Source: Longispora albida DSM 44784
Lineage (GTDB): Bacteria > Actinomycetota > Actinomycetes > Mycobacteriales > Micromonosporaceae
DNA: 64,000 nt
Assembly: GCF_000379825.1 (NCBI RefSeq)
Contig: NZ_KB903813.1
Location: forward strand, 324,292-388,291
Reading direction: 5' to 3'
Positions 1,514 through 56,573 of this stretch are shown one piece after another. Below the pieces are notes generated by a model, which saw nothing but the letters and a program-made list of their open reading frames with translations, made no database searches and was not told the origin of the DNA. A program made the translations under genes and the position numbers. Positions within the stretch are counted from its first letter, which is position 1. Each line of letters starts with the position of its first letter.

Positions 1514-2860
1514 ATGAAGCGTTCTATCGCCGGCGCGGCCCTCACGGCGCTCGCAGCCAGCACCCTCTCTGCCGTTCTGGCCACTCCGGCCCTGGCAGAA
1601 ACGCCCGCGGCTCCCGTTGACCTGGCTGTCGGCATCAAGGCCCGCCAGCTCGTCGTGGACTCCCAGGGCAAGACGTTCTTCCTTGAGGTGCAGAACAAGG
1701 GTGGCACCACCGCGAAGAACGTGAAGGTCGTCATCGACCTCAGCAAGCTCGGCGCGTACGTGGTCGCCGACCTCCCCGGTACCACCTGCAAGGGTGACCG
1801 GACCGCCTACGTCTGTGAGCTGGGCGAGCTGGAGCCCGGGTACCTCGACGGCAGCCTCGGCGTGAACCTCCGCCCGGTGTCGCCGGACGCCCCGCTCGGC
1901 CGGACCGGCAAGCTCACGGCCTCGATCAGCTCGGACTACCGCGAGGACGCCGCCCACAAGGGTGACAACTCGACGACGTACAGCGTGGACCTGGCCGCTC
2001 CCGGTATCGACTACGGGGTCCTGGCGGGCAACCTGACCGGCCTGGCTCCCGACACCGACACCGAGCTGTGGATCGCTGTCGACAACAACGGCTCCCAGAC
2101 CGGTTCCGGCCTGTCGCTGGCGCTCACGCTGCCCGACCACGTCGTGTTCAGCGAGGAGGTGCAGGGCTGCTCGTACACGCAGATGCGCGCTGCGGTCTGC
2201 GAGTGGTCGTCCTACCTGGACACCGACGGGGTGGAGCGCCCGATCGTGCTGGACCCGGGCGCGAGCTTCGACACGCTGGTCTTCGGCCTGAAGGTCCGCG
2301 CGACCCCCGACGCCCCGTCGAACGCGAACCTCGGCGCGGCCACCGTCACCATCGGCACCTACGGTGACTACAAGCCGGACTACGTCCCGTCGAGCGAGAC
2401 CGTGGTGCGCAAGGCGATGGTGTCCGGCCGCCAGGTCGACATGGACAAGGTCGACAATGCCGCCCGGTTCACGCTGACCACGGCCGCTGCCGCCGCTGAC
2501 CTGACCGTCGCGGACGCCACGGTGACCGGCAAGGCCGGCGACGTGGTCAAGTTCAAGGTGACCGTGACCAACCAGGGTCCGTGGAACAGCGCCAAGGGTG
2601 CCAAGGTCACCGTGACCGCCCCGCAGGGCACGCAGCTGGTGAAGCCGCCGGGCGGCTGCCACGGCATCGTCAGCAAGGTGACCTACGAGTGCTCGCTGCC
2701 CGCGCTGGGCGTCGGCAAGAGCGCCGAGATCGAGATGTCGCTGCGGCTGGTCAAGGAGACCACTGTGGCTGGTTCGATGACGGTCAGCGGCGGTGCCAGG
2801 TCCGACGCCGTGGCCGGCAACAACGCCGCGGTGCTCGACGCCAAGGTCACGAAGAACTGA
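1514..2860 (+). CDS. Secreted protein with DUF11/CARDB-like Ig-fold repeats
   Basis: The 448-residue product has a clear Sec signal peptide (MKRS, then a hydrophobic stretch, then ATPALA) with likely cleavage after Ala28. The mature part contains repeated beta-rich units with phrases such as VTNQGPWNSAKGAKVTV and VQNKGGTTAKNVKV, typical of the DUF11/CARDB family of extracellular Ig-like repeats. There is no LPXTG motif and no C-terminal membrane helix, so the protein is probably released or bound non-covalently to the envelope. Its start is preceded by GGTGGA inside a strong hairpin (1472-1511), suggesting conditional translation. A 13-bp terminator follows. The binding partner and exact role are unknown. 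Confidence 0.75.
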   Translation: MKRSIAGAALTALAASTLSAVLATPALAETPAAPVDLAVGIKARQLVVDSQGKTFFLEVQNKGGTTAKNVKVVIDLSKLGAYVVADLPGTTCKGDRTAYVCELGELEPGYLDGSLGVNLRPVSPDAPLGRTGKLTASISSDYREDAAHKGDNSTTYSVDLAAPGIDYGVLAGNLTGLAPDTDTELWIAVDNNGSQTGSGLSLALTLPDHVVFSEEVQGCSYTQMRAAVCEWSSYLDTDGVERPIVLDPGASFDTLVFGLKVRATPDAPSNANLGAATVTIGTYGDYKPDYVPSSETVVRKAMVSGRQVDMDKVDNAARFTLTTAAAAADLTVADATVTGKAGDVVKFKVTVTNQGPWNSAKGAKVTVTAPQGTQLVKPPGGCHGIVSKVTYECSLPALGVGKSAEIEMSLRLVKETTVAGSMTVSGGARSDAVAGNNAAVLDAKVTKN

Positions 2861-2884
2861 CCATCTAGTACCTGGCAGGCGATC

Positions 2885-2914
2885 CGCCCCCGCAGCGCAC
2901 CCGCTGCGGGGGCG
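2885..2914. terminator. Strong hairpin terminator
   Basis: A 13-bp perfect GC-rich stem (2885-2897 with 2902-2914) with a 4-nt loop lies 25 bp after the stop of the secreted repeat protein. Confidence 0.75.
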
Positions 2915-2932
2915 TCGTGCTGTGACCGGGTG

Positions 2933-2938
2933 CATACT
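2933..2938 (+). promoter_or_regulatory. -10 element of a leaderless promoter
   Basis: CATACT ends 7 bp before the ATG at 2946, and no Shine-Dalgarno is present between them. This supports the chosen start and a leaderless transcript. Confidence 0.45.
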
Positions 2939-2945
2939 TGCGGGC

Positions 2946-3332
2946 ATGATGTTCCGGGACGACCTGCTGATCGTCGACCACGAGCTGGAGAACAGGCGGC
3001 TTCGGCTGCGCGCAGACAAGGAGCGCGACATCTGCCTGACCTGCCTCGGTACCGGGACGATCGGTTACGTCGCCCGGACCGGCCCGTACAAGTCGCCGGG
3101 CGTGTGCTCGCCCTGCCACGGCGAGGGCTGGATCGCGGTCGCCGGGCTCAGCAAGGCCGACTGGACGATCCGGGAAGCCACGTGGCGTGGCCTCACGCAG
3201 TCCGTCCTGGGTGGACCGTGCCGGTCGTGCGGCGGGAGCGGCGCGCTCTTCGCCGAGGGCTCGTCCCGCCTCGACCCGCGCTTCGTGCCGTGTACCAGCT
3301 GCGAGTCGACCGGCCGCCGTGCCCTCGGGTAG
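2946..3332 (+). CDS. Small stand-alone DnaJ-type zinc-finger protein
   Basis: The 128-residue product (MMFRDDLLIVDHELENRR...) carries four CxxCxGxG-like knuckles in order: CLTCLGTG, CSPCHGEG, CRSCGGSG and CTSCESTG, the last degenerate at the first glycine. This is the layout of the zinc-binding cysteine-rich domain of DnaJ, but there is no J domain, no Gly/Phe region and no substrate-binding C-terminal domain. The start at 2946 was chosen because a -10 element lies 7 bp upstream and the upstream part of the frame covers a terminator. The stop abuts the stop of the convergent gene at 3333. A zinc-bound partner-binding or chaperone-like role is likely, but the function is unknown. Confidence 0.75.
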   Translation: MMFRDDLLIVDHELENRRLRLRADKERDICLTCLGTGTIGYVARTGPYKSPGVCSPCHGEGWIAVAGLSKADWTIREATWRGLTQSVLGGPCRSCGGSGALFAEGSSRLDPRFVPCTSCESTGRRALG

Positions 3333-4418
3333 CTACTGCAGCTTGGACAATGTGGCGGTGGCCGTCTCCAGCAGGGCGGCCTTGAGCTGGTCGAGTTCGG
3401 CCTGCGCCCAGTCCTTGTCCTCGCGGGAGACCCCGAGGTTGAAGTTCAGCATCACGTTGCCGCGGACGACGCTGAGCTGGAGGCTCGCCTGCTTGCCTGC
3501 CGGGGCGACCGCGATCGTGGCCTGGTCGCCGAGGTTGGGCAGGCCGGCCGCGCCGGGCAGCGGCTTCGCGCCGTACATCGCGTAGGCCTCGATCGAGGAC
3601 GGGAAGTACTGGAGCGTGGAGCTGAGCTGACCGGCCCGGTTCAGCGAGACGGGCTTGGCCGTGCCCTGGGCGACCGGGGGAGTGGCGACCGGCGCCTTGT
3701 ACTCCAGCGCCCAGGCGCAGCCGAGCGGCGGGGTCTGCACGCCGGCCGCGATGCCCGGGTAGAGCGCCCTGAACGGGGCCGGGTCGGACTTGCCGCAGAT
3801 CTCGGCCAGGGTGACCCGCTGGACGGCCGGGGTGGCCGAGGCGGAGGCGGTGGCCGAGGGGCTGATCACCGACGACTCGGTGACGGCTGCGGCCTTGGGC
3901 TGGGTGTCCTTGGCCCCGCTCTTCTTGTCGTCGGCCGGGATCAGGAAGATCAGCGCGAGCACGCCCGCCACGATCAGCGCGATCACGCCGATGGCACTCA
4001 GGATCAGCCGGCCAGCGGACATGGTCTTGATCGCCCCGATCACGGGGAGGACCATCGTCGGGCTGTCGTCCGGCCGGGCCTGCGGCTGGGGTGCCGGTGC
4101 CGGTTCTGGTTCCGGCTGCGGGGCCGGGGCCTGCTCCTGCTCAGCCTGAGGGAACGGAGCCGCCGGGTACGGGCCGGCGCCGCCGAATGCAGCCTCCGAC
4201 GTCCAGGCCGGGTCGTCCGTGACCGGCGGAACCGGGGAGGCGGACGGCTGCTCCGGTGCGGGAGCGACCGGTGCTTCCGGGGTGTGGGCCGGTGGCACGG
4301 CGGCCGACGCCGAGATCCGCCGCATGTCCGGCGGCAGCTCGGAGCCTTCCGCGTGAATGCCCCGCCGGTGCCTGCCCCCAGGCGGGGGCACGCTGGGGTC
4401 GTGAGCCGGCTGCGTCAA
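3333..4418 (-). CDS. Single-pass membrane protein with Pro/Ala-rich cytoplasmic tail
   Basis: The 361-residue protein has about 130 residues of Pro/Ala/Glu/Gln-rich, low-complexity sequence, a membrane helix around residues 138-160 (LILSAIGVIALIVAGVLALIF), and an external C-terminal domain of about 180 residues with two cysteines (EICGKSDP, LGCAWALEY). The start used is TTG at 4418, with AAGGAG about 11 nt upstream. The gene is convergent with the zinc-finger gene and divergent from menG. The external domain resembles the DUF3558-like domains common in actinobacterial envelope proteins only in general terms, so no function is assigned. Confidence 0.65.
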   Translation of the reverse strand: MTQPAHDPSVPPPGGRHRRGIHAEGSELPPDMRRISASAAVPPAHTPEAPVAPAPEQPSASPVPPVTDDPAWTSEAAFGGAGPYPAAPFPQAEQEQAPAPQPEPEPAPAPQPQARPDDSPTMVLPVIGAIKTMSAGRLILSAIGVIALIVAGVLALIFLIPADDKKSGAKDTQPKAAAVTESSVISPSATASASATPAVQRVTLAEICGKSDPAPFRALYPGIAAGVQTPPLGCAWALEYKAPVATPPVAQGTAKPVSLNRAGQLSSTLQYFPSSIEAYAMYGAKPLPGAAGLPNLGDQATIAVAPAGKQASLQLSVVRGNVMLNFNLGVSREDKDWAQAELDQLKAALLETATATLSKLQ

Positions 4419-51017: not shown

Positions 51018-51086
51018 GAATAGCGGCCTGCCATGCACGCAGGACCGGATCGCCGGCCCTCCTGCCGGAGTAACGGAGCGAACGTC

Positions 51087-52688
51087 GTGACACAAACCCC
51101 CGCGCCGGCCGGGCACACCGGCCACCCGAAGCGGTGGAGCATCCTGGGCGTCCTCGTGGTCAGCCTGCTGGTCGTGGTGCTCGACAACACCATCCTCAAC
51201 GTGGCGATGAAGACCATCGCCGACCCGGTCCACGGCCTGGGCGCGACCCAGAGCCAGCTCGAGTGGGCGATCAACTCCTACACGCTGGTCTTCGCCGGCC
51301 TGCTGTTCACCTTCGGCATCATCGGCGACCGGATCGGCCGCAAGAAGATGCTCCTGACCGGCCTGGTGCTGTTCGGGATCGCATCGCTGGCCTCTGCCTA
51401 CGCCCAGGACCCCGGCCAGCTCATCGCGGCACGCGCGCTGATGGGCCTCGGCGGTGCGGCGATCATGCCAGCCACGCTGTCGATCATCTCCAACGTCTTC
51501 GACCCGAAGGAACGCCCCAAGGCCATCGGCATCTGGGCCGGGGCCGTGGGCCTCGCCGTCGCGATCGGCCCGGTCCTCGGCGGCCTGCTGCTCGAGAACT
51601 TCTGGTGGGGCTCGGTCTTCCTGATCAACGTCCCGATCATCGCCATCGGCCTGGTCGCGGTCTTTTCCCTGGTACCGGAGAGCAGGGACCCAGCCCCCGG
51701 CAAGATCGACTTTGTTGGCGTGCTGCTGTCCATCGTCGGCCTGGGGCTGTTCGTGTACGGCATCATCACCGGCGGCGAGTCCGGCGACTGGTCGCACCCC
51801 GAGGTCTGGGGCACGATCGCGCTCGGCGCGCTGGTCCTGGCGGCCTTCGTCTACTACGAGAGCCGCATCGACCACCCGGCCCTCGACGTACGCCTCTTCC
51901 GCGACCCCCGGTTCGCCGCGGCTGTCTCTGCCGTCGGCCTGGTGTTCTTCGCCGCGATGGGCGTGATGTTCTTCGGGGCGTTCTACCTGCAGATGGTCCG
52001 CGGCTTCAGCCCGATCGAGACCGGCCTGCTCTTCCTGCCCTTCGCCGCAGCGCAGCTCATCTTCGCTCCGCGCAGCGCCGGCCTGGTCAGGAAGTACGGC
52101 GCCAAGGCGGTCTGCGCCACCGGCATGTTCCTGGTGACCTTCGTCCTCGGCGCGTTCATGTTCGTCGGAGAGTCCACGCCGGTCTGGGTGCTCCTGGCCC
52201 TCTGGTTCATCCAGGGCGCCGGCATGGCCAACGTCATCCCGCCGACCACCGAGGCCGTCATGGCCTCGCTGCCCCGGGAGAAGGCCGGCGTCGGCTCCGC
52301 CGTCAACAACACGATCCGCCAGGTCGGCGGCGCGCTCGGCGTCGCGGTTCTCGGCTCGGTCCTCTCCCAGGTGTACCGGAGCGAGATGGACAGCCACCTG
52401 GCCACCTTTCCGGTCCCTGCGGCTGTCAAGGAACAGGCTTCGGAATCGATCGCAGCGACGTACTCGGTCGCGACCGAACTCGGGCAGGCCGGCCACGCGC
52501 TGATCGCCCCGGCCAACAGTTCCTTCGTCGAAGCGATGAACTGGACGGCCGCAGGCTCGGCCCTGGTGGCCCTCCTCGGCGCCCTGGCCGTGCTCCGCTG
52601 GCTCCCCGGCCGCCGCCCCGCAGCGGTACCGGAGGCCAAGAGTGAGCCCAGCAAGACGGCCCAGCCAGAACTCGCTGATGTCGGCTAA
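51087..52688 (+). CDS. DHA2-family (14-helix) MFS drug efflux pump
   Basis: The 533-residue protein is of the EmrB/QacA type: [16 protein letters not shown] in helix 1, [13 protein letters not shown] in the 2-3 loop, and [20 protein letters not shown] with [17 protein letters not shown] in helices 4 and 5, where motif C lies. The GTG at 51087 follows GGAG by 8 nt. The tetR gene begins 11 bp downstream, and two operators lie upstream, so the pump is very likely repressed by that TetR protein. The substrate is unknown. Confidence 0.9.
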
Positions 52689-52699
52689 TGTGACCGGCG

Positions 52700-53299
52700 A
52701 TGACTGAGACAACGACGCAGAGTGCTCCGCGGCCGCCCGGCCGGCCGCGGAGTGCCCACGCTGACGGAGCGATCATCGACGCCGTCCTCGACCTGCTCGC
52801 CGAGGGCACCACGGTCGAGGCGCTGTCGATGGAGGCAGTGGCCGCGCGGGCCGGTGTGGGCAAGGCCACGGTCTACCGGCGGTGGCCGCACAAGGACGCG
52901 CTGCTCCTCGACGCGGTGGCCTCGCTCAAGCACCCGCTCGAGGAGCCGCCCGGCCGCAGCCTCCGCGAGGACTTGGTCCTTTTGATGAACAAGGCGTGGG
53001 AGGCCCACGACAGCCGGGCAGCGAAGATCATGCCTTGCCTCATTCCCGAACTTCAACGTGAGGGCGCACTCCGCACGCAGTTTCTGGAGTTCATGGACCG
53101 GAGGCGCGAAGTCATGCGTGACGTACTCCGCCGCGGCATGGCCTCGGGCGAGCTCCGTCCCGATCTGGAAATTGAGCTGGTGCTTGTACTCCTTTCAGCG
53201 CCTATGCTGATGGCTACCGTCGGCAACGCGCCGAAACTGAACGCTGAAGGGCTGGCCGAGCGAGTAGTCGATGCAGTACTAAAGGGCATCGCCTGCTAA
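52700..53299 (+). CDS. TetR-family repressor of the adjacent pump
   Basis: The 199-residue regulator has a helix-turn-helix at about residues 25-70 (MEAVAARAGVGKATVYRRWP) and a TetR C-terminal ligand domain. It is cotranscribed with the pump, and its probable operators lie upstream of the pump at 50940-50960 and 50997-51017, which gives autoregulation. The ligand is unknown. Confidence 0.88.
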   Translation: MTETTTQSAPRPPGRPRSAHADGAIIDAVLDLLAEGTTVEALSMEAVAARAGVGKATVYRRWPHKDALLLDAVASLKHPLEEPPGRSLREDLVLLMNKAWEAHDSRAAKIMPCLIPELQREGALRTQFLEFMDRRREVMRDVLRRGMASGELRPDLEIELVLVLLSAPMLMATVGNAPKLNAEGLAERVVDAVLKGIAC

Positions 53300-53488
53300 T
53301 TTTTCTGTATAAAACGGACAATGACCTCCCAGTTTCGCCGCGAGTACCGTAGTCTCTGGCTACCACCTCATACCCGCCGCGGCGACGGCTGCTGTGATCG
53401 AGCCGTTTCGTACTTCCGTGTGCGCTCTCCTGTATGGCAGGATGGGCAACAACTTCCCTGTCCTCAGGCCGGTCTAGAGGTGCTAGTA

Positions 53489-53677
53489 ATGAAATCTGTG
53501 ACGGTCGTCCGGCGGAAGGTCGCCGTAGCACTTGCTGGCGCTGCATGCGCCGTTATCGGAGTCCTTGGTGTCACGGCGAGCCCTGCATCGGCCGAGGACG
53601 TCATCTGGCTCTCGTCCCAGGACAGCGCGGCGACCTCCGTGTCGACGCCGTCGTTCAAGGACGTGATCTGGTTGTGA
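53489..53677 (+). CDS. Small secreted peptide precursor with terminal DVIWL repeats
   Basis: The 62-residue precursor starts MKSVTVVRRK, has a hydrophobic core (VAVALAGAACAVIGVLGV) and a signal-peptidase site ASPASA before Glu37. The predicted mature peptide is 26 residues: it begins EDVIWLSS and ends FKDVIWL, with a Ser/Thr-rich middle. The same pentapeptide at both ends is striking. AGAGGTG lies about 6 nt before the ATG. The membrane GGDEF/EAL gene begins 52 bp downstream in the same direction. A role as an external signal for that protein is inferred, and I know no named family. Confidence 0.7.
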   Translation: MKSVTVVRRKVAVALAGAACAVIGVLGVTASPASAEDVIWLSSQDSAATSVSTPSFKDVIWL

Positions 53678-53729
53678 CCGCGCCCGGCTGCCGCCGGCGC
53701 TCTACCGCTTGCCGTAGCTGAGGTCAGCA

Positions 53730-56252
53730 GTGCGCAACGCGGAGGCGAAGCGGGACACGAGTGAGGGTCGGCTGTGGCTCGCTACGGCCGCCGCGGTTCT
53801 GTGCGCTGTGGCGCTGATCCTCCCTGTCGCGTATCGCTCCGAACACGAGGTCGAACCGCTTCTCGCTGTTCTCTTTTTCGTTTTCTTCTCCGTCGCCGAG
53901 CGGACCTTCCTGACCGTCGAGTTCCGTCGTCAGGTCTACGGATACAACGCGGTCGAATTCCCCCTTCTGCTCGCGCTCTTCTATCTTCCGCCCATCTGGG
54001 TTGTCATCACCCGGGTGCTGGGCGTGGCCGTCTCCTACGGATATCGGCAGCAGCCAGTCAAAGCGCTATTCAACATCGCGCAGCGCGGCGCCGGCACCGC
54101 CGTCGCCGGCCTGGTCATCCTTCCGCTGGCAGGCAAACTCGATGTGACGAATCCGGTGCACTGGATCGTCCTGATCGGAGCGGCCGAAGCCGGCAGCCTG
54201 GTCAGCATGGCGGCCGTCGCCGGGGTCCTGACCATCGCGCAGGGCTGGATGGGGTTCCGTTCGCTGGCCCGGGTGACGCTGCGCAACCAGATGGTGTGCA
54301 CGGTCAACGCCATCATCGGCCTGATCGTCCTCCTGGCGCTGAACACCTCGCTGTGGGCCATCGCCTGCCTGATAGTGCTCGGTGGCGTCGTCGGCGCCGC
54401 GTACAGGGCGTACCAGCGCTCGCTCCAGCAGCACAGGAGCCTGACAGAGCTGTACGACTTCACGCAGGCCGCCGCCCAGGCGCGCGAGTCCGGCAACCTC
54501 GCGGACGTCCTGCTCGTGCGGGCACGCAAACTCCTCAACGCCGAGTACGCGACACTGTGGTTGCCAGAGACCAAGCGGCACCCCGAGGTCCTGCTGACGG
54601 CCCGGATCGACGACAAGGGCCTCAGCGACCGGCCCGTCACGCCGACCTTGTTGCGTGCCAGGGCGATGGAGGTCGACAAGACTCTCGTGGTCGGCCCGAA
54701 GACCGGCGACGCCGACCTGCGCGCCCTGCTGGTCGAGAACGGCAAGAAGGACGTCATCGCGGTGCCGCTCCGCTCGGGTACGGCTGTGATCGGCACGCTC
54801 GAGGTCGTCGACCGGGTCGGTGACCTGAACACTTTCGACCCGCACGAGGTCCGTCTACTGGAGACGCTCGCTGCGCACGTCGCCGTCGCCGTCGAGAACT
54901 CGCGGCTCGTTGACCGGCTCCGGTTCGACGCGTACCACGACAGCCTGACCGGCCTGCCCAACCGGCGCCGCATGATCGCGATGCTCGAGGAGGCCGTGAA
55001 GATCAGTGCTCCCGACGTCGTGGCCGTCCTGCTGTTCGATGTGGACGGTATGCGCGACGTCAACGAGTCGATGGGCCACCAGGCCGGCGACAAACTGCTC
55101 GCCGAGGTGGCGCACCGGCTCCGGGAGCTGGCCCCGGCCGCGGCGCTCGTCGCCCGGGTCGGTGGCGACAAGTTCACCGTGATGCTGCGGGTCGAGACGA
55201 CGGCCGAGGCTGTCGAGCTGGCCGGCAAGCTCCGGGCGGCTCTCCAGGAGCCCATGCGGCTCGGCACACTCAACCTGGACGTGGACACGGCCGTCGGCCT
55301 GGCCATGCACCCGGAGCACGGCAGCGAGCCAGAGGTGCTGCTCCGCCGGGCCGATCTCGCTGTCCACGCGGCCAAGCAGACCAACTCGCACATCCAGCCG
55401 TTCCACCTGGCGCTGGAGTCGGGTTCCACCCGGCGGATCGGCCTGGCCGGCGACCTGCGCCGCGCACTGGACTCCGGCGAGCTGGAGGTCTACTTCCAGC
55501 CCAAGGTGGCCCTCGCCGACCGCAGGCTGGTCGGCGTCGAGTGCCTGGCCCGCTGGGAGCATCCGGCGCACGGCTCGGTGAGTCCTGGTGACTTCATCGC
55601 GGTCGCCGAGCACACGGGCCAGCTCGGCCGCCTGACCGAGGTGGTGCTCCGCGAGGGGCTGCGCCGGTGCCGGGAGTGGGCTGACGAGGGCCGCCCGCTC
55701 ACCGTCGCGGTGAACCTCTCTCCGCGTACCCTGATCGACCCCGACTTCCCCGCGCAGGTCGGCGAGCTGCTGACCGAGTACGGGGTGCCGCCGGAGCGGC
55801 TCACGCTGGAGATCACGGAAGACGGCATGGTGGCCGGCCCTGACCGGCCGATGCCGACCCTGCACCGCCTCCACGATCTCGGCGTCCGGCTCTCCGTCGA
55901 CGACTTCGGCACCGGCTACTCGTCCCTGTCGTACCTGCGCCGGCTGCCCGTGCACGAGGTCAAGGTCGACCGGATGTTCGTGCAGGGCATGGCGACCGAC
56001 CCGGGTGACCTGGCGATCGTCCGCGCCGTGGTCGACCTGAGCCGCCACTTCGGGCTCAGCGTCGTCGCCGAGGGTGTGGAGAGCGAGCTCACCCTGGCGC
56101 TGCTGGAGGAGATGGGCTGCGACGTCGGGCAGGGCTTCCTGTTCAGCCGTCCGCTGCCGTACGAGCGGCTGGAGACGTGGTTCGCCGCCCAGACCATCAC
56201 CGAGGAGGCGTCGTTCGGCGGGGCCGTCCGGCGGCTCCGCGCGGTGCCGTAG
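53730..56252 (+). CDS. Membrane GAF-GGDEF-EAL protein (probable c-di-GMP phosphodiesterase)
   Basis: The 840-residue protein has about six N-terminal helices (residues 15-225), a GAF-like domain (~240-395), a GGDEF domain (~400-555) and an EAL domain (~570-820). The GGDEF motif is GGDKF (478-482), with Lys for the catalytic Glu and no upstream RxxD inhibitory site, so cyclase activity is unlikely. The EAL side keeps Glu604 (ECL), NLSPRTL, LEITEDG, DDFGTG (724-729), KVDRMF, EGVES and DVGQGF, so c-di-GMP hydrolysis is likely. The start is GTG with GAGG about 8 nt upstream. The peptide gene 52 bp upstream may encode its ligand. Confidence 0.92.
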   Translation: MRNAEAKRDTSEGRLWLATAAAVLCAVALILPVAYRSEHEVEPLLAVLFFVFFSVAERTFLTVEFRRQVYGYNAVEFPLLLALFYLPPIWVVITRVLGVAVSYGYRQQPVKALFNIAQRGAGTAVAGLVILPLAGKLDVTNPVHWIVLIGAAEAGSLVSMAAVAGVLTIAQGWMGFRSLARVTLRNQMVCTVNAIIGLIVLLALNTSLWAIACLIVLGGVVGAAYRAYQRSLQQHRSLTELYDFTQAAAQARESGNLADVLLVRARKLLNAEYATLWLPETKRHPEVLLTARIDDKGLSDRPVTPTLLRARAMEVDKTLVVGPKTGDADLRALLVENGKKDVIAVPLRSGTAVIGTLEVVDRVGDLNTFDPHEVRLLETLAAHVAVAVENSRLVDRLRFDAYHDSLTGLPNRRRMIAMLEEAVKISAPDVVAVLLFDVDGMRDVNESMGHQAGDKLLAEVAHRLRELAPAAALVARVGGDKFTVMLRVETTAEAVELAGKLRAALQEPMRLGTLNLDVDTAVGLAMHPEHGSEPEVLLRRADLAVHAAKQTNSHIQPFHLALESGSTRRIGLAGDLRRALDSGELEVYFQPKVALADRRLVGVECLARWEHPAHGSVSPGDFIAVAEHTGQLGRLTEVVLREGLRRCREWADEGRPLTVAVNLSPRTLIDPDFPAQVGELLTEYGVPPERLTLEITEDGMVAGPDRPMPTLHRLHDLGVRLSVDDFGTGYSSLSYLRRLPVHEVKVDRMFVQGMATDPGDLAIVRAVVDLSRHFGLSVVAEGVESELTLALLEEMGCDVGQGFLFSRPLPYERLETWFAAQTITEEASFGGAVRRLRAVP

Positions 56253-56367: not shown

Positions 56368-56440
56368 GCCCCTTTAGCTCAGTCGGCAGAGCGTCTCCAT
56401 GGTAAGGAGAAGGTCTACGGTTCGATTCCGTAAAGGGGCT
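56368..56440 (+). tRNA. tRNA-Thr (anticodon GGT)
   Basis: A 73-nt cloverleaf with acceptor GCCCCTT/AAGGGGC, anticodon stem TCTCC/GGAGA with loop ATGGTAA, and T-loop GTTCGATTC. CCA is not encoded. Its place upstream of tRNA-Met and rpmG is conserved in actinobacteria. Confidence 0.96.
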
Positions 56441-56494
56441 CTTCGCTTGCCGGGGTAACCCGGGAAGTTGCAGGCAGGCTCGTTGGCCTGGCTT

Positions 56495-56567
56495 GGCGGT
56501 GTAGCTCAGATGGCAGAGCAAGCGGCTCATAATCGCTGTGTCGCCGGTTCAAGTCCGGCCACCGCTA
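56495..56567 (+). tRNA. tRNA-Met (anticodon CAT)
   Basis: A 73-nt cloverleaf with acceptor GGCGGTG/CACCGCT (first pair G-T), anticodon loop CTCATAA and T-loop GTTCAAGTC. It lacks initiator features such as three consecutive G-C pairs in the anticodon stem, so it is the elongator type. A lysidine-modified Ile tRNA with CAT cannot be fully excluded, but the neighbourhood favours Met. Confidence 0.93.
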
Positions 56568-56573
56568 CTGCGG

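Follow-up and report, generated by a model that had tools for sequence, protein, structure and literature searches.

The window, by which is meant the whole 64,000-nucleotide stretch of the Longispora albida DSM 44784 genome analysed here (contig NZ_KB903813.1, positions 324,292 to 388,291), contains a very small gene just upstream of a gene for a membrane enzyme. The original prediction described a 62-codon gene with a ribosome-binding site, a signal peptide and two copies of the pentapeptide DVIWL, followed after 52 bp and on the same strand by a GAF-GGDEF-EAL gene. Both genes were confirmed by the ORF listing of the window (in which the small ORF begins with ATG), by the GAGGT upstream of the small ORF, and by Pfam analysis of the enzyme (Table 1). 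The sequence of the 62-codon ORF is MKSVTVVRRKVAVALAGAACAVIGVLGVTASPASA / EDVIWLSSQDSAATSVSTPSFKDVIWL. Its mature part, previously counted as 26 residues, has 27 if cleavage occurs after ASPASA. The DNA of the two DVIWL copies is unlike at synonymous positions (GACGTCATCTGGCTC / GACGTGATCTGGTTG).

In the enzyme, the EAL catalytic residues are intact; the GGDEF motif is not. Of 75 aligned rows, a set that includes repeats of the same genomes, at least 44 have the exact motif. The membrane part had been described as consisting of six helices; in the structural model about eight segments are helical, and a beta hairpin is present as well (see below).

Table 1. Features of the peptide-enzyme locus (positions are those of the window)
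Feature	Position	Strand	Basis
AGAGGT, ribosome-binding-like, 5' of peptide gene	53476..53481	+	sequence; GAGGT scored by script
Small peptide gene, 62 codons	53489..53677	+	ORF; coding by pN/pS in related loci
Signal-peptide part, residues 1-35, end ASPASA	53489..53593	+	hydrophobic stretch and AxA, sequence only
DVIWL copy 1	53597..53611	+	sequence
DVIWL copy 2, C-terminal, stop codon directly after	53660..53674	+	sequence
Membrane GAF-GGDEF-EAL enzyme, 840 aa, GTG start	53730..56252	+	ORF and Pfam
Membrane sensor domain, residues 38-207, predicted ECF S-component fold	53841..54350	+	AlphaFold2 model, VIA-align
Beta hairpin, residues 59-75, conserved Arg66-Arg67	53904..53954	+	model and alignment
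GAF domain	54498..54893	+	Pfam PF01590, E 3.2e-13
GGDEF domain, motif GGDKF	54930..55385	+	Pfam PF00990, E 3.2e-33
EAL domain, catalytic residues kept	55452..56153	+	Pfam PF00563, E 3.7e-73; alignment
tRNA-Thr(ggt) and tRNA-Met(cat), syntenic downstream marker	56368..56568	+	tRNA genes

Conservation of the gene pair

An orthologue of the first 257 amino acids of the enzyme was found in 148 of 150 Micromonosporaceae genomes, and 145 orthologous loci were studied (three of the 148 matching genomes, G030, G122 and G158, were left out). An ORF with a signal-peptide-like start, as called by hydrophobicity alone, ends just before the enzyme gene at 140 of these 145 loci (137 found by script and three by eye); the median distance from peptide to enzyme start in the family is 46 nt, and 135 of the 140 peptides contain a lenient AxA-like pattern. 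One and the same script reported such ORFs at 135 of 145 loci at the site itself, whereas the opposite strand gave 10 of 145 and the region further upstream 8 of 143; a tryptophan in the last two residues was found 90 times at the site and not once in either of the other places. Four of the 145 loci (L111, L126, L138 and L139) carry the motif without a visible signal peptide, and L173 has no candidate peptide ORF. The adjacency is fixed over the 43 genera sampled, the exceptions being genus g14 (L173) and genus g15, where the form lacking a signal peptide is the only one (L126). The tRNA-Thr/tRNA-Met pair recurs downstream in 24 of 25 loci examined.

The sequence of the peptide is a poor guide to this conservation. 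When the 62-residue peptide was searched against 61 genomes (60 relatives and its own), matches with E of 0.1 or better were obtained in 34, those outside its own genome were weak (best E 6e-4), and in the two genomes checked, G032 and G034, they sit elsewhere than the orthologous locus. A search with the peptide sequence alone would therefore have led to the mistaken rejection of the gene pair. The coding constraint was measured in 17 independent pairs of related loci: the signal-peptide part has a pN/pS of 0.18 and the linker one of 0.40 (one of the 17 pairs includes L138, whose last five residues were used and not its W motif). The gene pair is real, coding and syntenically kept, and its first gene encodes a precursor with one or several species-specific pentapeptides behind a signal-peptide-like start.

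The pentapeptide word and its repeats

The mature parts of the family peptides can barely be aligned, and their common feature is a pentapeptide, usually xxxWx and mostly C-terminal. In 112 of the 144 peptides the pentamer forms the very C-terminus, and in the other 32 it stands elsewhere; among the 112, L111, L138 and L139 were counted by the default rule, which takes the last five residues and not their W motif. The original expectation that a small ORF with a signal peptide and DVIWL would precede homologous GGDEF/EAL genes was thus borne out for the ORF and its signal peptide at 140 of 145 loci, while of the word DVIWL the form is conserved and not the letters. The word differs from species to species: in genus g17 (6 of 11 genomes match Catellatospora contigs), 11 species have eight different words, each in at least two copies per peptide.

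The terminal pentamer recurs, with a match of four of five residues or better, in 39 of 144 peptides, as against 1.2 expected from shuffled sequences; no peptide falls at exactly three of five matches, and 105 have a single copy only. The repeated DVIWL is more than chance. In 29 peptides the first and last copies are identical as protein, and in 27 of these 29 the DNA differs. About half of the synonymous sites differ between protein-identical copies. Taken over all 150 copy pairs pS is 0.45, and first versus last copies give 0.56; pN is 0.51 in the flanking residues. The low pN within copies (0.035) follows from their having been picked at four of five identity or better, and so the information lies in how the copies differ at synonymous sites and in the freely varying flanks.

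Our main reading is that the product of the small gene is processed to a short peptide, often present in multiple copies, that serves as a ligand for the adjacent enzyme; we hold this to be about an even bet (probability roughly 0.5). Counting against it are the versions without a visible signal peptide, the charges of the sensor loops, the lack of charge complementarity between word and sensor, the drop in their covariation from 30 to 143 loci (see below for each), the pentamers that stand elsewhere than at the end, and the many single-copy peptides. One alternative is that the small ORF acts as an arrest or leader peptide of the SecM, VemP or MifM type, its translation controlling that of the enzyme as the C-terminal motif stalls the ribosome. 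A signal peptide, a short ORF directly upstream and a C-terminal motif in most members would all fit such a device. However, the repeats stay alike even at a distance from the stop codon, the word varies between species, repeat tails occur on subtilases (see below), and RNA structure between the genes shows no excess over 144 loci (mean z -0.81, versus -0.69 in a coding control). In the window itself, positions 53660-53760 fold no more strongly than shuffled sequences (z -0.33), and the earlier suggestion of a hairpin tuning the ratio of the two gene products is not supported; Rfam families, promoters and terminators, sought between and before the two genes, gave nothing above chance. An arrest peptide is on this evidence very improbable. 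Even less probable, in our estimate, is a secreted product such as a multi-core RiPP or an antimicrobial whose gene stands beside its regulator: multi-copy cores with frequent tryptophan do resemble multi-core precursors, but we noticed no modifying enzyme in the ORF list of the window and its surroundings (at the other loci the flanks were checked for tRNA genes only).

Occurrence outside the Micromonosporaceae

In other families, a repeated W-pentamer precedes the same type of enzyme in 34 of 62 loci; the reverse strand has one in 5 of 62. These 62 loci comprise 40 hand-picked non-family matches and the 28 best of another set, minus six dropped for too little upstream sequence, and a few genomes contribute two loci. 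The repeated W-pentamer is found at 33 of the 52 loci with a sensor score of at least 70 bits and at one of the 10 below 70 bits. The 28 loci without it include six with a single motif (L215-L218, L229 and L231) and two with a repeat lacking W (L223 and L284); at the rest nothing of the kind was seen upstream. The pairing of peptide and sensor that was originally proposed is strongly supported by this re-occurrence together with the fixed adjacency within the family. The proposed export of the peptide is supported for the Micromonosporaceae, whereas other families have versions without a visible signal peptide (for example L220, L221, L225-L228, L230 and L289).

At some outside loci the repeats form the tail of a subtilase encoded just before the enzyme: all four long ORFs tested matched Pfam PF00082 (Peptidase_S8), and up to 22 pentamer copies occur in L280, a further long ORF outside these four. 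These tails and the high copy number could mean that the peptide, or the subtilase with its repeat tail, remains attached to the envelope or inside it as an accessory subunit docked to the sensor, and reports protease activity or the state of the envelope rather than cell density. Several family peptides are also very short behind the hydrophobic stretch and may be anchors instead of cleaved precursors. On the other hand, a released ligand would account no less well for the exact C-terminal position of most pentamers and for the speed at which the word changes, and nearly all signal-peptide-like starts contain the AxA-like pattern. We regard a docking role as unlikely.

The sensor domain

AlphaFold2 modelled the membrane sensor domain with a pLDDT of 88, and the domain is predicted to have the six-helix fold of an ECF S-component. 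In VIA-align, the first 24 rows for the first model are all S-components (Z 8.6-13.0; next row 7.9), and for a second model, built from an independent sequence set, the first 22 rows have Z 9.6-13.0 (next row 7.5); for helical folds, Z values below 13 do not prove kinship, and the best Foldseek rows reach E of only 0.05-0.2. Other structure matches of the model were Lnt (Z 7.9), Mce and Mla (both about 6). The beta hairpin appears in the model to occupy the place of the S-component L1 loop.

By the positive-inside pattern, both the hairpin and the 104-111 loop would be cytoplasmic, and the S-like fold would then turn its ligand side inward. This charge pattern is one argument for a pentapeptide that works within the cell that makes it, on a sensor facing the cytoplasm, the Micromonosporaceae signal peptide being a later addition; mini-ORFs without a visible signal peptide, in several families and at four loci of this one, are another. 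Such a purely cytoplasmic ligand is nevertheless quite improbable, given that the signal-peptide-like start is kept at almost all family loci under purifying selection and that subtilases are as a rule exported.

If the peptide is a ligand of this domain, as we favor, one might look for covariation between word and sensor. A partial Mantel comparison over 30 loci gave a correlation of 0.35, which none of 2000 permutations reached. Over 143 loci (without L140) the partial correlation was 0.065 (p 0.02), with higher values for GAF (0.082) and GGDEF (0.163), and with W words alone (130 loci) it was 0.035 (p 0.14). When restricted to pairs, the correlation was 0.45 for 478 close, non-independent ones (GAF -0.16) and 0.24 for 70 independent ones (p 0.05; GAF 0.20). 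No charge complementarity was seen between acidic, neutral or basic words and sensor positions about 56-119; this comparison is confounded by descent, because acidic words are confined to the family.

A proposed peptide-sensor system

The binding, processing and output of the peptide may be pictured as follows. The precursor would be exported by Sec and trimmed, so that pentapeptide units are freed or exposed. A unit would then bind the S-component-like domain of its own or a neighboring cell, whether it arrives from the exterior, following re-import or by way of the membrane itself, and binding would alter c-di-GMP breakdown through the GAF-GGDEF-EAL output with its intact EAL site. Several copies per precursor could raise the dose or the avidity, and a word that changes jointly in all copies could give each species its own signal. 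The cell-to-cell signalling, cutting into DVIWL units and control of c-di-GMP hydrolysis in the original prediction would all have a place in this scheme.

A broader proposal, to which we give somewhat less than even odds, is that of a peptide-signalling superfamily across the Actinomycetes, in which species-specific pentapeptides (xxxWx and relatives), often in multiple copies, would gate dedicated c-di-GMP enzymes via the S-component-like receptor domain. The precursors would be exported peptides, leaderless mini-ORFs or subtilase tails, and the fast change of the word would provide a private channel for each species.

Few of the signals that control c-di-GMP levels in Actinomycetes are known. 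The broader proposal, if true, would describe the first peptide-to-c-di-GMP receptor family that we are aware of. The gene pair would contribute a new class of receptor, in which an S-component-like fold is joined to a c-di-GMP enzyme, and a new class of peptides whose species specificity is visible. The number of GGDEF proteins per genome in the phylum is given as 0 to 80 in PMC10746217. Searches of an open-access library turned up no description of such a pair of peptide gene and c-di-GMP sensor. Almost all of the Micromonosporaceae genomes sampled have the pair, and its first gene spells the candidate ligand, so that the model can be tested directly with synthetic peptides.

Comparison with known systems

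SecM, VemP and MifM share with the small gene a signal peptide and a short C-terminal motif just before another gene. Unlike theirs, the motif here is variable and often present in several copies, the gene downstream encodes no secretion factor, and the RNA structure signal is absent. The partner enzyme resembles the GGDEF-EAL tandem proteins of Actinomycetes in its GAF-GGDEF-EAL domain order and conserved EAL residues, and differs in its dedicated upstream peptide or repeat protein, which the searches of the open-access library did not show to be described for them. With the ECF S-components (RibU, FolT, ThiT, NikM/CbiM), which bind small ligands, the sensor shares its predicted fold; in contrast to them, it is fused to GAF-GGDEF-EAL, has extra helices before and after, and carries loop charges that suggest the inverse orientation.

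There is also a parallel with the RRNPPA systems of the Bacillota (Phr-Rap, PapR-PlcR, AimP-AimR), in which a small precursor with an export signal and a C-terminal short peptide is encoded next to its receptor, and the peptide is taken up again through an oligopeptide permease before the receptor binds it. Some RRNPPA precursors are described as carrying several pheromone copies (PMC11343458; PMC9765709). The precursors studied here have the same build, with a signal-peptide-like start (by hydrophobicity) at 140 of 145 loci and, in 112 of 144 peptides, a pentamer that makes up the last five residues. The receptors are unlike: that of RRNPPA systems is a cytosolic TPR protein, whereas our candidate combines an S-component-like membrane sensor with a c-di-GMP enzyme, and in this protein Pfam detected GAF, GGDEF and EAL and no TPR. 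The pentapeptide here is also mostly xxxWx, and it occurs in Actinomycetes. The best reading, by analogy, is that the candidate pair would work like Phr or AimP, yet stands outside the RRNPPA group.

The peptide gene and the enzyme gene

The original prediction placed a small gene directly ahead of a membrane GAF-GGDEF-EAL protein, and both parts of that description were borne out, the first by the reading frame itself and the second by Pfam. The small ORF encodes a basic-hydrophobic start ending in ASPASA, followed by a tail that opens with EDVIWL and closes with KDVIWL. The peptide matches no Pfam or NCBIfam model above the cut-off; its sole Pfam entry, DUF4179 (E 0.02), is far below. An ORF similar to the upstream regulator is also found upstream in L040, a genome of the same genus.

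Features of the Longispora albida locus (window positions)
Feature	Position	Strand	Remarks
MFS transporter gene, then TetR-family regulator gene	51033-53299		just upstream; by Pfam
Peptide gene	53489-53677	+	62 codons; ATG start with GAGGT ahead
Enzyme gene	53730-56252	+	GTG start; GAF, GGDEF and EAL
tRNA-Thr gene, then tRNA-Met gene			3' of the enzyme gene

Conservation by position

Conservation of the peptide gene is not seen by sequence search. An orthologue of the first 257 enzyme residues is present in 148 of 150 genomes of the Micromonosporaceae (the family), the other two being 80 and 87% complete, and the upstream region was inspected in 145 of these 148 loci (L039-L183). An ORF that has a signal-peptide-like start and stops at the enzyme was found in 137 by script and, with three that the script's filter had missed (L062, L084 and L112, recognized by eye), in 140 of the 145, as anticipated for homologous enzymes. 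In four loci (L111, L126, L138, L139) the ORF bears the motif but no signal peptide, and in L173 no candidate ORF was seen upstream of the enzyme. As a control, a single script was applied to three different stretches; it found such an ORF in 135/145 loci at the true place, 10/145 on the opposite strand and 8/143 at 455-900 bp upstream, with tryptophan within the last two residues in 90, 0 and 0, respectively. The median distance from peptide stop to enzyme start is 46 nt. Genes for tRNA-Thr(ggt) and tRNA-Met(cat) come after the enzyme gene in 24 of the 25 loci having enough flank, and the peptide-enzyme locus thus looks like a single site passed on by vertical descent. For 17 independent pairs of related peptides, the pN/pS ratios of the signal part, the linker and the motif are 0.18, 0.40 and 0.28, respectively; judged by this substitution pattern, which is not that of non-coding DNA, the small ORF is coding.

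The hairpin proposed to lie between the two genes is not supported, since RNA structure there is at chance level; no Rfam family matches window 53200-54000. That the small ORF acts as an arrest leader is quite improbable.

A search of the open-access literature by title and start of abstract, with most subscription journals and all bioRxiv preprints outside its scope, found no description of the peptide-enzyme pairing, which is weak evidence. The GGDEF-EAL gene studied in PMC6828939 sits behind a maltase gene and, going by the neighbours described for it, is not at this place.

A species-specific pentapeptide

Beyond the signal part the family peptides are barely alignable, yet they have a common form. 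The expectation that DVIWL motifs would recur upstream of homologous enzymes was right about this form, a mostly C-terminal and mostly tryptophan-containing pentamer, and wrong about the word itself, which differs between species. With the word taken as the last tryptophan together with the three preceding residues and the following one, or else as the last five residues, tryptophan is present in the word of 128 of 144 peptides and the pentamer lies at the exact C-terminus in 112 (L111, L138 and L139, called by the last five residues, are included in the 112 and excluded from the 128).

Several groups depart from this form. All 13 loci of genus g12 (L168, L170, L172, L174-L183) have SGEIS-like words that have lost the tryptophan (SGEIS, SGEVA, NSGDVA), with up to seven copies, GTG starts and the enzyme retained. 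The ORFs without a signal peptide (L111, L138 and L139 of genus g13, and L126) have 20 residues, or 40 with DA[DQ]WQ four times; L112, also of genus g13, has a signal peptide. Some peptides, those of L041, L042, L156, L157 and L162-L164, have WW or EW as their ending, so that the position following the constant tryptophan is not fixed or is absent.

A second or further copy of the pentamer, with at least 4 of 5 residues identical, occurs in 39 of the 144 peptides, against 1.2 expected in shuffles. The best second-copy matches are two-peaked (0-2 in 105 peptides, 4-5 in 39, none at 3), and examples include SVDWT x3 (L076), DFTWG x3 (L094), DHEWH x3 (L124) and SGEVA x7 (L179). First and last copy are identical as protein in 29 peptides and differ in DNA in 27 of these; pS between copies is 0.45 when every copy pair is counted and 0.56 when the first is compared with the last, and the flanking residues are free to vary (pN 0.51). 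Comparison of the copies thus argues that they are old and kept equal at the protein level. In genus g17 (six matching Catellatospora), 11 species have 8 different words and at least two copies in every peptide. By analogy, sameness within a precursor combined with difference between species is what would be expected of a ligand that has to fit its own receptor.

We put at about one half the probability that the peptide is a dedicated ligand of the adjacent c-di-GMP enzyme; in the simplest form, the precursor would be exported and trimmed to the pentapeptide. Tests for co-evolution of word and sensor had a mixed outcome with no clear signal, and charge complementarity between the two was not seen. 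That the peptide is instead an envelope-bound docking partner is doubtful.

Loci beyond the family

Homologues of the membrane domain are found in 78 of 121 order-level and 41 of 148 class-level genomes, family members being counted in both. The upstream side was inspected in 40 + 28 loci outside the family, 62 of which have at least 400 bp. A same-strand ORF with a W-pentamer at least twice is present in 34 of the 62, and a reverse-strand ORF with a repeated W-pentamer in five, all of which also have a forward repeat. The repeat occurs in 33 of 52 loci with sensor scores of at least 70 bits versus 1 of 10 weaker ones, and in 22 of the 24 loci tested for this at least some of its copies differ in DNA (exceptions, L275 and L277). 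These ORFs take the form of exported precursors (GASWN in L294), of mini-ORFs without a visible signal peptide (MSSTLRTNKWTRTNKWTRTNKWTRTNKWT in L226, 4-fold DGGSWT in L220), or of long ORFs whose tails are repeats, among them (SARWS)n, (GSTWS)n and (GRTWS)n; all four of the long ORFs tested are Peptidase_S8 proteins. A secreted natural product is a very improbable identity for the peptide.

In eight loci (L253, at 2002-3906 on the minus strand, L257, L259, L261, L280, L290, L296 and L302) a long ORF right before the same enzyme type ends in many W-pentapeptide repeats (GRTWS, GSTWS, SARWS, GAGWR, GSSWR, GLRWN); those of L253, L257, L259 and L261, the four tested, are subtilases. L253 is a second enzyme copy within the family and the other seven are in other families. 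In L284 the ORF before the enzyme repeats GASLT, which has no tryptophan, 18 times.

The sensor domain and its predicted likeness to transporter subunits

The window enzyme retains the EAL residues and has GGDKF in place of GGDEF, so that its output is likely c-di-GMP hydrolysis. An AlphaFold2 model of its first 257 residues (pLDDT 88) gave, in VIA-align, ECF-transporter S-components or related proteins in the top 24 rows (Z 8.6-13.0), followed by Lnt (from 7.9 down to 7.0) and others with at most 6.3. Some of the 24 rows are titled only 'transporter'; these and BtuM are taken to belong here. The S-component matches span residues about 39-209, and those to the metal transporters NikM/CbiM start from residue 11. 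Foldseek also ranked S-components first, with E 0.05-0.2 and none under 0.001. A second model, built on 16 sequences that belong to the class but not to the family, gave S-components in rows 1-22 (Z 9.6-13.0), the next row being 7.5. The sensor domain is thus predicted to share the S-component fold, a likeness short of proven kinship because a shared arrangement of helices can give Z values of this size.

S-components bind small ligands. Across 47 to 188 sequences, the sensor loops are positive in the N-tail, the hairpin 59-75, 104-111, 171-180 and after 226, and negative at 37-43 and 134-143. These charges suggest that both sensor ends are inside and that the hairpin and ligand side face the cytoplasm, in which case the S-like part would be upside down compared with its orientation in ECF transporters. 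An inward ligand side is at odds with the simple case of a ligand outside the cell and fits the leaderless mini-ORFs; a cytoplasmic ligand is improbable. For a dedicated ligand that is exported, re-import as in Phr, the RRNPPA-type exported precursor peptide of Bacillota, could reconcile the two.
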